Source: Candidatus Saccharimonadota bacterium (GTDB lineage Bacteria > Patescibacteriota > Saccharimonadia > Saccharimonadales > Saccharimonadaceae). Taken from it: a stretch of DNA of 34,045 nucleotides. Made by a program: the position numbers and the translations under genes. The stretch covers positions 1 to 34,045 of the forward strand of contig JAEEKR010000021.1 of the NCBI GenBank assembly GCA_016282495.1. The letters are read 5' to 3'. This document shows positions 4,205 to 32,532 of this stretch, piece by piece; position 1 is the first letter of the stretch; the number at the start of each line of letters is the position of its first letter. The notes below the pieces were generated by a model. The model searched no databases and was not told the origin of the DNA. It saw only the letters and a list, made by a program, of their open reading frames with translations.

Positions 4205-5839
4205 ATGAATAAAGACACGATTTATATTGAGCCAGAAAACGATATTACAGACATTATCGCTAAAATTAAGGGGTCAAAGCAAAAAATTGTTGCTTTAGTT
4301 CCACCAAAAAAGAGCAGCGTCCTTCGCAGTACTATCAATATGAAACTAATAACCAAGTCGGCTAAGGAATTTGAAAAAACCGTAGTACTAGTTACTAACG
4401 ATCCTTCTATCATGAAGCTCGCTATGGGCGCAAAAATCTTGGTAGCTGAAAACCTTCAGTCCCCACCATCCATTCCTACCATGGAGGATATAAAATCTAA
4501 AACAGACGACAAAGAAGAAGCCGTCGCTGAAGAATTTACCAAAGCTCCAGAACCAGCTGATAAAGTTATCAAATCCTCTGATCTAGATGAAAATGAAGAT
4601 GAAGAAAAAGACGACGAAGAGGATAAAGTCACTAAAAAAGATAAAAAGGATAAAAAAGGCAAAAAAGAGCCAAAAATCCCGAGCCTAGACAAATACCGCA
4701 AAAAGATTATCGTAGGTGTTGTACTAGCCGTTTTGATTATTGGTGCGTTAGTTTGGGCATTTGTTTTTGCGCCGAGGGCAGACATTGTGGTTTCTATTCG
4801 TACGACTTCCAATAATTTTTCCGAAGGAGTTAGCTTTACAAACAAAAAAGATGAAGAAAACGGCAAAGATGGCAAATTCTTATTAGAAGAGCAAAAATAC
4901 TCCGACGAATCGGAAGTTGAATTCACTGCTACCGGCAAAAAGGATATTGGTGTAAAAGCCAAGGGCGAAGTCATCATTAGCGCACGAGTTACTTTTGGGC
5001 AATCCGTCTCCATCGCAGCTGGGACTGCTATTACATATAATGATTTAGTTTTCTATACTAACAAAGATCTTGTTTTTGATTTTAGCTCTCTTTCCGAGCT
5101 TACTAATTGTGATAGCTATGGCGATAATTACTGCGTCAAAAGCGCATCGGTTGGCGCCACGGCCGCTGAACCTGGCGAAAAATACAATATAGATTCTGGA
5201 AAATCTTTCTCAAGCGACAACAAATCTATCAACGGCATTACTAATAGTAGCGCATTTGCTGGCGGTACATCAAACGTTATCACCGTAGTGCAGGCATTAG
5301 ATATTGAAGCGGCCAAAAACAAACTTGGTATGGATAGTGAGAAGGATGGTAAGAAGAAGTTGTATAGCAAAATCTCTGACGGAAATTATATCATCGAAGA
5401 CAGCTATAAACACGAAGTGTCCGATCCAGTTTCTTCTATTGGCGTAGGGGAAGAAGTTAAAGAGGGTTCAAAGCCAGTTTTAAAGGCAAGTTCAACATTT
5501 TTCGTTTACACTATTGACACCGTACGCATCGAAGAGTTTATTAAACACAAAACCAATCTCCCAGAAGACCAAAAGATTTATTCTATAGGCGAGCCTTTCA
5601 TTGAACAATTCTCTGGCGTAGAAGCTCCCGCTAAGCTCAAAACTACTTACAGGATTGGACCAAAAATTACTGAAGAATTTATACTCGAAAAATCCATCGG
5701 CAAGAAAATTGGAGAAGTCCAAACTTATATCAAATCGATCAATGGCGTAAGAGATGCTAAAGTTAATCCTTCGTTCTTCTGGGTGCGAAAAATCCCAACT
5801 GATACAAATAAGATAACGATTACTATCAAAGAAGAGTAA
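4205..5839 (+). CDS. Single-pass membrane protein of unknown function with acidic linker
   Basis: A 544-residue protein I cannot assign firmly. Residues 1-90 form a small alpha/beta-looking cytoplasmic domain (DIIAKIKGSKQKIVALVPP, then TVVLVTNDPSIMKLA). Residues ~95-165 are a highly charged linker, acidic first and lysine-rich later. One membrane segment (~168-189) precedes a ~355-residue domain that the positive-inside rule places outside. That domain has short beta-rich stretches (KKDIGVKAKGEVIISARV, then SIAAGTAITYNDLVF) reminiscent of baseplate-J/adhesin-like beta domains annotated in Patescibacteria; this is a resemblance, not an identification. It is first in a run with the RuvX-MltG and LysM-CHAP genes (5-bp gap), so a cell-envelope role is likely. 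The ATG sits 8 bp after its -10 element. Confidence 0.85.
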   Translation: MNKDTIYIEPENDITDIIAKIKGSKQKIVALVPPKKSSVLRSTINMKLITKSAKEFEKTVVLVTNDPSIMKLAMGAKILVAENLQSPPSIPTMEDIKSKTDDKEEAVAEEFTKAPEPADKVIKSSDLDENEDEEKDDEEDKVTKKDKKDKKGKKEPKIPSLDKYRKKIIVGVVLAVLIIGALVWAFVFAPRADIVVSIRTTSNNFSEGVSFTNKKDEENGKDGKFLLEEQKYSDESEVEFTATGKKDIGVKAKGEVIISARVTFGQSVSIAAGTAITYNDLVFYTNKDLVFDFSSLSELTNCDSYGDNYCVKSASVGATAAEPGEKYNIDSGKSFSSDNKSINGITNSSAFAGGTSNVITVVQALDIEAAKNKLGMDSEKDGKKKLYSKISDGNYIIEDSYKHEVSDPVSSIGVGEEVKEGSKPVLKASSTFFVYTIDTVRIEEFIKHKTNLPEDQKIYSIGEPFIEQFSGVEAPAKLKTTYRIGPKITEEFILEKSIGKKIGEVQTYIKSINGVRDAKVNPSFFWVRKIPTDTNKITITIKEE

Positions 5840-5844
5840 TTACT

Positions 5845-7431
5845 ATGAAGGTTATAGGACTAGATGTTGGTACTAAGCGTATCGGCGTAGCGAAAGCCGA
5901 CTCTAATGTTAAAATTGCTGTTCCTCATACAACATTAGAAGTTAACGGCACAGAATTTGAACAAATTGCACACATAGCAAAGATTTATAGTGCCGGCCAT
6001 ATCGTCATTGGTTTGCCGCGCAATTCAAAAGGCGAAGAAACTGCTCAGAGTACATACAGTAGAGAATTTGCTATAAAGCTAAAAACACTTCTTCCAGATA
6101 CAAAAATATATCTTCAAGATGAGTCGCTTACTTCAGTAGAAGCCGAAAATCGGCTCAAATCTCGTCAAAAACAATACCAAAAGGGTGACATTGATGCCGA
6201 AGCAGCTACGATTATATTGCAAGATTTTCTTGAGATTCTAGCTAGGCAAGACCCTAGCTTGTTAAATCCAGTAGAATTAAACGATTCTACCAAAGTAATT
6301 AGTAAAAAAAATCGTAAAAAATCTAAAAAATCCAAGACAAAAATCATTATCCCACTTGTAGCCATTGCCATATTGTTAGTCGGCGGGATTGTCGGCGCGC
6401 TGCTATGGTACCATTCGTCCTTAGGACCAGCATCAAACGTAGATTTGTGCGAGTGTGTCTGTGATACTATCGATCAATCCAACGAATGGTGCTGTTGTAA
6501 AACATTTAGTATCGAGGATGGCGAATCGGTGTCTGAAATAGCCTCAAAATTAGAAAAAGAAGGCCTCATTAAAAGTGCCTTGTCCTTTCGTATATATGTC
6601 AAACTCAATAACTTTGGCGATCAATTAAAATCAGGTAAATATTTATTATCCTCTAATATGTCGGTGGAAGAAATTGTGAAAAAATTTGTTGAAGGCGCCG
6701 TAGATGATAACGTGTTTTCTTTTACAATCCTACCGGGGGAAACACTGAAAGACATTAAAAAACGATTGCTAGAAGTTGGCTATACTGAAACCGAAATCGA
6801 CAAAGCATTTAACGCAACTTATGACCACCCTTTGCTTGCAAATAAACCAGCAGACGCATCTTTGGAAGGTTATGTTTTTGGCGAAACTTACGAGTTTTAT
6901 AAGGGCGAAACTGTCGAAAACATCTTTATGACGACTTTTGACCAACTATACTCAGTAGTCAAGGAGAACAATCTCGAACAAAGATTTGCTGAGCATGGGC
7001 TCACTTTGCACCAGGGCATTATATTAGCTTCAATAATTCAAAAAGAGGCTGGCAGGCTCAGTGCCGAAGACAAAGCAATTGTAGCGCAAATTTTTTACTC
7101 TAGATTGAATTCCGGGTTGAATCTAGGCAGTGACGTGACCGTAACTTATGCGCTTGATCAGATTGACCCAGATAGAACAGTGTACACGGACAATCAACTG
7201 GCTCTAACCGTTGACTCTTGTTATAATACCAGGCTTTATAGTGGTCTTCCGTGTGGTCCAATTTCTAACCCTGGCGCCGAATCATTAATTGCGGCGGCGA
7301 ACCCAGCTGATACCTCTTACCTTTACTTCTTGACAGGTGACGATGGTCTGATGTATTATAGTACTACAGAGTACGAGCATAACTCCAATATAGTCCAACA
7401 TTGCCACGAACTCTGTAATGTTTCATTATGA
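5845..7431 (+). CDS. Fusion of RuvX/YqgF nuclease and MltG endolytic transglycosylase
   Basis: One uninterrupted 528-residue frame with two unrelated enzymes. Residues 1-~132 are RuvX/YqgF, an RNase H-fold nuclease acting on Holliday junctions or 16S rRNA ends: GLDVGTKRIGVA with D7, QDESLTSVEAENRL with E93, and DIDAEAATIIL with D117 form the acidic triad. A lysine-rich linker (~150-166) and one membrane helix (~167-188) follow. Residues ~220-528 are YceG/MltG, which cuts nascent glycan strands outside the membrane; the catalytic Glu lies in ILASIIQKEAG, and SNPGAESLIAAANP is typical of the family. Topology is consistent: nuclease inside, transglycosylase outside. A six-cysteine cluster (C202, 204, 206, 216, 217, 218) sits just outside the membrane. 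The next gene overlaps its stop (ATGA). Confidence 0.92.
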   Translation: MKVIGLDVGTKRIGVAKADSNVKIAVPHTTLEVNGTEFEQIAHIAKIYSAGHIVIGLPRNSKGEETAQSTYSREFAIKLKTLLPDTKIYLQDESLTSVEAENRLKSRQKQYQKGDIDAEAATIILQDFLEILARQDPSLLNPVELNDSTKVISKKNRKKSKKSKTKIIIPLVAIAILLVGGIVGALLWYHSSLGPASNVDLCECVCDTIDQSNEWCCCKTFSIEDGESVSEIASKLEKEGLIKSALSFRIYVKLNNFGDQLKSGKYLLSSNMSVEEIVKKFVEGAVDDNVFSFTILPGETLKDIKKRLLEVGYTETEIDKAFNATYDHPLLANKPADASLEGYVFGETYEFYKGETVENIFMTTFDQLYSVVKENNLEQRFAEHGLTLHQGIILASIIQKEAGRLSAEDKAIVAQIFYSRLNSGLNLGSDVTVTYALDQIDPDRTVYTDNQLALTVDSCYNTRLYSGLPCGPISNPGAESLIAAANPADTSYLYFLTGDDGLMYYSTTEYEHNSNIVQHCHELCNVSL

Positions 7432-8510
7432 TAGCGAATAAAACTAAATTTAAGAAAAAGCTGTTTAGACAGTTTATTCCGTATGCTTTAGCTTTCGTTG
7501 CATTGCTTGGTTTAGTTTTTGTTGGTTCATTAGATAAAAAAGATAATAAGAATAATGTTCCAATAATGCTTGCTATGGGTAATAACAACTATGACGTCTC
7601 TGTAGATCAAATTTCAGAGCTATACATGGTAGCGGAAATTGCTCAAAATGTTAATTTAGAGTCAAAAAACTATCTTAACATGGATTATGCTTCTGCTGTC
7701 GCCCAGTATTCTATGAACCAAACCTCTACCACTTCCGCTACTATAGAGAAACCAAATCTTGTTAATACCGCGCTTTCTCGTGGTGTTATAGTTTATACCG
7801 TTTCTGCTGGAGAAAGTATGGAAAGTATCGCTGCTAAATTCGACATCAGTACAGACCAAATTAGATGGTCTAACGGCCTTAAAACTACAGAAATTAGCGT
7901 TGATCAAACCCTTTATATTCCAAGCGTTTCAGGAATTATCTATACGGTTAAAGCGGGAGAAACGATTGAAGGCATTGCCGAAAAATATGGTTCTGACGCT
8001 AAGCTTATTGTTGCTTATAACGATCTAGAGGCATCCGAAGGAATCGCCGAAGGTCAACGCCTAGTTCTGCCAGATGGCACTTTGCCAGAGACAGAAAGGC
8101 CTGAGTATGTTGCTCCAGTAAGGCAATCGTATTCCGGTTATTCGTCTACGATTCACTGGGGTGGCGGTGGTAACCCAATGCCTTATGGTTGGTGTACCTG
8201 GTTCGCCTGGCAATGGCGTCATGACAATATGGATGGTAGCTACACATTACCTTCTGGTCTTGGAAATGCACGCTATTGGGATAGTCAGCTTGCTGGTAGT
8301 TTCTATATCGATAAAAACCCTCAATATGGGGACGTCTTCGTTAATAAGGCTGGTTACTATGGTCACGTTGGTATCGTTACCGGCGTTAATGGTGACGGCA
8401 CGATTACTATTACGGATATGAATGGTAAAGCTGGTTGGGGCAGAGTAGGAACAGAGGTTGTGGATGCATCTACTTGGAGTAGTTGGAACTTCGTTCACGG
8501 AAGGAAATAA
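7428..8510 (+). CDS. LysM-LysM-CHAP peptidoglycan hydrolase
   Basis: A 360-residue secreted or membrane-anchored wall enzyme. A basic N-terminus and one hydrophobic segment (~15-34) act as signal or anchor. Two LysM peptidoglycan-binding modules follow (~121-165 beginning VIVYTVSAGESMESIAAKF, and ~170-215 beginning IIYTVKAGETIEGIAEKY). The C-terminal CHAP domain (~245-360) has a likely catalytic Cys256 in PYGWCTWFAWQW and His313 in YYGHVGIVTGV. CHAP domains are amidases or endopeptidases that cut peptide stems. Its ATG overlaps the stop of the RuvX-MltG gene, so the two wall-cutting enzymes are translationally coupled; they would cleave glycan and peptide respectively. Confidence 0.94.
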   Translation: MIANKTKFKKKLFRQFIPYALAFVALLGLVFVGSLDKKDNKNNVPIMLAMGNNNYDVSVDQISELYMVAEIAQNVNLESKNYLNMDYASAVAQYSMNQTSTTSATIEKPNLVNTALSRGVIVYTVSAGESMESIAAKFDISTDQIRWSNGLKTTEISVDQTLYIPSVSGIIYTVKAGETIEGIAEKYGSDAKLIVAYNDLEASEGIAEGQRLVLPDGTLPETERPEYVAPVRQSYSGYSSTIHWGGGGNPMPYGWCTWFAWQWRHDNMDGSYTLPSGLGNARYWDSQLAGSFYIDKNPQYGDVFVNKAGYYGHVGIVTGVNGDGTITITDMNGKAGWGRVGTEVVDASTWSSWNFVHGRK

Positions 8511-25230: not shown

Positions 25231-32499
<7,269 letters not shown>

Positions 32500-32513
<14 letters not shown>

Positions 32514-32532
32514 TTTTATCTCCACTTTGCAT
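32500..32532 (-). CDS. Possible 10-codon leaderless upstream ORF of the giant gene
   Basis: ATG at 32532 lies 7 bp after TATAAT (32540-32545, minus strand) and encodes MQSGDKSGSL, ending at TAG inside the start region of the giant gene in another frame. The ribosome site GGAG and the GTG start of the giant gene are within it. Position and spacing match the trpS and hppA leader ORFs, but no regulatory codon is evident and chance is quite possible. Confidence 0.25.

Follow-up and report, generated by a model that had tools for sequence, protein, structure and literature searches.

The RuvX/YqgF proteins, known as pre-16S rRNA nucleases and putative Holliday junction resolvases, are essential in several bacteria, and yqgF often adjoins mltG. 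They are normally free in the cytosol and about 140 aa long. In Bacillus subtilis the same two families are encoded close together on the chromosome by yrrK and yrrL (BSU27390/BSU27370), but as separate genes, and the two have been connected in a co-evolution analysis (PMC3814617). The characterized role of MltG/YceG in Escherichia coli and B. subtilis is the trimming of nascent glycan at the outer face, and the catalytic glutamate is E218 in the former and E242 in the latter (PMC8135044). In Deinococcus radiodurans YqgF, residues D22, E106 and D122 are needed for RNase activity (PMC9601230). Here we describe a gene of gut Saccharibacteria in which RuvX and MltG form one chain on either side of a predicted membrane helix. 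The sequence-only reading of this DNA did not know the fusion as a standard architecture, and no prior description of it was found in the literature searched. Both families are known, and their combination is a new domain architecture rather than a new system.

The stretch of DNA analysed (the window) comprises 34,045 nucleotides from a Candidatus Saccharimonadota genome of 730 kb, a metagenome-type assembly in 42 contigs that is about 90% complete. The fusion frame (Table 1) runs from an ATG to a TGA over 528 codons without an internal stop or break, and encodes, from the N- to the C-terminus, a RuvX/YqgF domain, a charged linker, one membrane helix, a LysM-like region and a YceG/MltG domain. 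In Pfam, residues 1–130 match RuvX (PF03652, E 1.6e-32, 113 bits against a cut-off of 29.2, profile positions 1–133 of 134) and residues 221–516 match YceG (PF02618, E 1.9e-69, 234.7 against 32.4). Similarly, the NCBIfam models score above their cut-offs on the window protein, TIGR00250 (RuvX) with 89.6 against 43.25 and TIGR00247 (MltG) with 196.6 against 103.4. RuvX and YceG are each matched once in the genome, both inside the fusion frame, and no second RuvX or MltG was found elsewhere in the assembly at its completeness of about 90%.

Table 1. Positions of the fusion gene, its parts and its two neighbours in the window
Feature	Position	Strand	Basis or remark
Upstream membrane protein, family without Pfam/NCBIfam match	4205..5839	+	stop 5 nt before the fusion ATG
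ruvX::mltG fusion gene, 528 aa	5845..7431	+	single open frame; orthologues are 102 distinct extracted sequences
RuvX/YqgF domain, residues 1–130, predicted cytoplasmic nuclease	5845..6234	+	PF03652
Proposed catalytic RuvX residues D7, E93, D117	5863–5865, 6121–6123, 6193–6195	+	invariance, structure alignment
Cytoplasmic linker, residues 131–166, Lys-rich, disordered	6235..6342	+	pLDDT, N-terminal tails of unfused MltG
Single transmembrane helix, residues about 167–192	6343..6420	+	hydropathy 2.82, model helix 169–192
Cys-rich extracellular juxtamembrane segment, CECVCD...WCCCK	6421..6498	+	at least 2 Cys in 55/56 long-form members
LysM-like N-terminal part of YceG/MltG ectodomain	6499..6708	+	YceG profile from residue 221; short forms
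YceG/MltG catalytic part; proposed catalytic E401 (7045–7047), YNT 460–462	6709..7392	+	PF02618
LysM-CHAP cell-wall hydrolase, downstream	7428..8510	+	Pfam LysM, CHAP; overlaps the fusion stop by 4 nt

The fusion has the full domain, the fold and the carboxylates of RuvX/YqgF in common with the free proteins, but holds them membrane-anchored within a longer chain. With E. coli MltG, B. subtilis YrrL and Listeria Lmo1499 it shares the membrane helix, the LysM-like part, the E218-equivalent and the YNT motif. It differs from an ordinary MltG in that its cytoplasmic tail bears a complete RuvX and in its cysteine pairs, outside the membrane and at the C-terminus. MltG of Streptococcus pneumoniae likewise has a cytoplasmic domain ahead of its membrane helix, one of unknown function, a likeness drawn from its description only (PMC8135044).

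An AlphaFold2 model, built with an alignment of 45 members, has a mean pLDDT of 89, with values below 50 only at residues 147–168 and a helix at 169–192. Its pTM of 0.54 is expected for flexibly joined domains; how the model places them relative to each other is thus uninformative. In Foldseek searches the RuvX half matches the YqgF structures 1nu0, 7ess, 1vhx and 7w89, and its RNase H-like fold is assigned with probability 1.00 to 1nu0, 7ess and 7w89; the MltG half matches the MltG structures 4iiw, 8yoa, 2r1f and 8yq7. All three RuvX carboxylates are present: D7 in LDxG, E93 in QDES (the glutamate of DE-x-x-T) and D117 (the aspartate of D-x-x-A). They align with B. subtilis, Mycobacterium tuberculosis and E. 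coli YqgF structures, and we equate them with the D. radiodurans residues by motif and by way of these other YqgF structures. E401 aligns to the second glutamate of E. coli MltG ASIIEKET, which is E218, a register that the description of AgmT supports (PMC11444678). The carboxylates D7, E93 and D117, and E401, Y460, N461 and T462 of the MltG half, are invariant in 102/102 fusion sequences, which bears out the earlier remark that both catalytic sets appear intact in one unbroken frame. By homology, each half would retain the catalytic role of its family.

Hydropathy and the model helix predict a single N-terminal membrane helix with the ectodomain outside. The positive-inside rule, applied to the basic segment ahead of the helix, gives an N-in/C-out orientation that would place the nuclease inside and the wall enzyme outside in vivo. 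This prediction agrees with where each family is known to be located, and the topology that had been called sensible from the letters thus appears sound. The C-terminal pair C520 and C524 (7402–7416) is nearly invariant among fusion members; together with the two or more cysteines outside the helix in 55/56 long forms, it suggests that the Cys-rich segment and the C-terminal pair form extracellular disulphides.

RuvX is present in 142/147 sampled genomes of the window's genus, and in 140 of these 142 it lies in one long frame (430–617 aa in 139 genomes), a recurrence that greatly exceeds what chance would give. In genome G151 the fusion frame is cut by a contig end, and the rest of MltG opens another contig. 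Both domains occur in every one of the 102 distinct long frames extracted from the genus genomes and from named contigs. The named relatives that carry the fusion are all Candidatus Saccharibacteria, mostly from goat, sheep and deer gut, and the fusion is intact across more than 100 species of this one large gut genus. In pairwise comparisons of pairs with unsaturated dS, dN/dS is about 0.00–0.04 for RuvX, 0.03–0.13 for MltG and 0.03–0.16 for the linker and membrane region. This purifying selection indicates that the whole frame is translated with both domains constrained, and that the linker is read in the fusion frame. A degenerate RuvX kept merely as a tag is disfavoured because its motifs are invariant and its dN/dS is low. 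Other parts vary in length, with 17 to about 138 aa between the end of RuvX and the membrane helix, and the LysM-like part is lost in about 46/102 members (one of the 46 cut by a contig end).

The possibility that an assembly or sequencing error joined two genes was raised by the fragmented, metagenome-type origin of the window (42 contigs), but its chance is vanishingly small given more than 100 independent assemblies with the same architecture at roughly 50% identity and selection on the linker; we regard an artefact as ruled out. The sequence-only reading had set against the fusion the case of relatives with separate genes combined with an assembly error here. Relatives outside the clade do have separate genes, but the fusion is genus-wide and under selection.

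The linker could also conceal a second product, with MltG or RuvX made separately as well, from an internal start or by slippage at A-runs. Shine-Dalgarno-like matches do occur at 16/93 internal ATGs against 8.4% of other codons, about twice the rate, and many linkers hold A-runs of 6–9 nt. However, 41/102 fusions lack an ATG in the stretch from RuvX to the membrane helix. The fusion of the window is one of them; its sole candidate start ahead of the helix is a TTG (codon 139) with no Shine-Dalgarno sequence. Long A-runs are not conserved across linkers. Separate production is therefore very unlikely; an internal MltG start is not credible in the window and is sporadic in other members.

Other genera of the family have ruvX (a frame of about 130–196 aa) as a gene of its own directly upstream of mltG, and nearly all relatives in the family have short overlaps or gaps between the two. 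The likely ATG of unfused mltG usually falls within ruvX, 1–14 nt from its end, or a few nt beyond it, mostly in another frame, and the unfused MltG has a cytoplasmic tail of roughly 10–100 residues ahead of its membrane helix. The fusion linker looks like the counterpart of this N-terminal tail of an ancestral MltG. It had been proposed that fusion of adjacent genes is a simple route. The adjacency is confirmed, since the genes of relatives abut or overlap, but simple stop loss does not fit: the unfused genes are usually in different frames, and joining them took a frameshift. In the usual arrangement one frameshift near the overlap would be enough. Several genomes in the class and phylum search have ruvX and mltG in one frame, separated by one or two stops.

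In the sister genus (45 genomes), 41/43 RuvX genes are separate and two lie in long frames. One of these long frames, in G725, is RuvX, membrane helix and MltG. The other (L190, G720:C1, 447–2222, plus strand) has RuvX, a membrane helix and a LysM-like, partial YceG region, followed by a GH73 glucosaminidase (PF01832, E 1.9e-30) that stands in place of the catalytic half of MltG; that genome has no YceG match outside this frame. An IQ-TREE phylogeny was built on RuvX plus MltG. The window's genus forms a clade (support 96), as do the genus and its sister together (100), and within the sister genus G720 and then G725 branch first (96, 99), ahead of an unfused core (98), the placement of G720 resting partly on its shortened MltG. 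An earlier tree did not contain the sister genus, and adding it put the probable origin one node deeper. Two related species of the window's genus, G248 (L114) and G135 (L115), have both coding regions intact with frames offset by 1 nt at the RuvX C-terminus, and candidate mltG start codons inside ruvX. They are nested within the fused clade (100) as sister to a fused member (98), which indicates a secondary split. One fusion followed by splits takes three changes against four for repeated fusions, so that a single origin is favoured. The most likely history, favoured and not proven, would be a single fusion before the two genera diverged and at least two re-splits afterwards, in the sister-genus core and in one species pair.

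Beyond these two genera the architecture appears rare. In full-length alignment against 342 class and 381 phylum genomes, no other uninterrupted RuvX-MltG frame was found among the top matches listed. A long RuvX frame in another Patescibacteria family (L113, G355:C1, 48–1565, plus strand) proved not to be a RuvX-MltG fusion; it joins a methionine-aminopeptidase-like Peptidase_M24 domain to a RuvX that follows it. In a further frame (L117, G461:C13, 653–1495, plus strand) a PD-(D/E)XK nuclease-superfamily domain (PF13366) precedes RuvX.

The neighbours of the fusion are also conserved. The membrane protein lies directly 5' of it in all ten g1 loci checked, and the LysM-CHAP gene lies downstream in the ten g1 loci checked and is recognizable by sequence after the G720 fusion. 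The 4-nt overlap of the LysM-CHAP gene with the fusion stop suggests translational coupling. Elsewhere in the window, the minus strand (27423–32525) encodes a protein of 1700 aa that carries six Listeria-Bacteroides (Flg_new) repeats; it is large for so small a genome (730 kb) and is possibly a surface adhesin.

The reading that we consider probable is a true bifunctional membrane protein, joined once and retained, whose RuvX is active at the inner face of the membrane and whose MltG is active on the outside. From the above we infer both enzymatic activities, the topology in vivo, the absence of processing and any benefit of the join. The N-terminal RuvX would be a cytoplasmic, metal-dependent nuclease of RNase H fold that, by analogy with YqgF, processes pre-16S rRNA. 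A single membrane helix and a flexible basic tail, derived from the former N-terminus of MltG, would anchor it, and it would act on RNA at the inner face as on a flexible leash, while the LysM-like and YceG parts would cut nascent glycan strands near the membrane on the outside. Given the predicted topology, a fused form would hold RuvX close to where glycan is synthesized, as was suggested earlier. The join would have arisen once from an overlapping ruvX-mltG pair, most likely in the ancestor of the genus and its sister genus, and we propose that it persists because the cell needs both activities and puts up with the join or gains slightly from it, perhaps through co-synthesis in a fixed ratio and membrane placement of RuvX.

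The main rival to this bifunctional protein, although unlikely, is that the single chain is cleaved within the linker or at the membrane, which would free RuvX and leave the fusion as a matter of co-translation only. A disordered, basic and fast-changing linker would suit such processing, as would the sufficiency of separate genes in the sister genus and two re-split species. However, the linker alignment shows no conserved cleavage motif, and the linker frame is itself under purifying selection. The variable linker and the two re-split lineages do indicate that the covalent link is not strictly required. Nevertheless, the link itself may be useful, as suggested by its retention in 140/142 genomes and by G720, where the scaffold was kept with the cutting domain replaced.

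Less likely still, in our view, is the co-option of RuvX as a cytoplasmic control or localization domain that couples ribosome or RNA status to glycan cleavage. Genus-wide retention of the fusion would fit, as would the GH73 swap in G720, which keeps RuvX, the helix and the LysM part as though the connection between RuvX and glycan cutting were important, and the cytoplasmic domain of S. pneumoniae MltG, of unknown function (PMC8135044). Against it, none of the proposed catalytic residues of RuvX has been lost and the genome has no other copy, so that RuvX must still perform its usual function; moreover, two lineages separated the genes again. More speculative and distinctly doubtful is a transmembrane link through which wall growth responds to the state of the ribosome or translation, or through which ribosomes bound to the membrane mature on site. 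If this were true, G720 would be a case in which the cutting tool was replaced and the link through the RuvX-membrane-LysM scaffold preserved.

In summary, the fusion clearly marks out one large genus of gut Saccharibacteria, and the fused genes may be named by annotation pipelines after one half only. Furthermore, the clade offers a natural experiment on the functional link between RuvX and MltG, in which the two were covalently joined, both proposed active sites were kept and, in one lineage, the wall-cutting domain was swapped.
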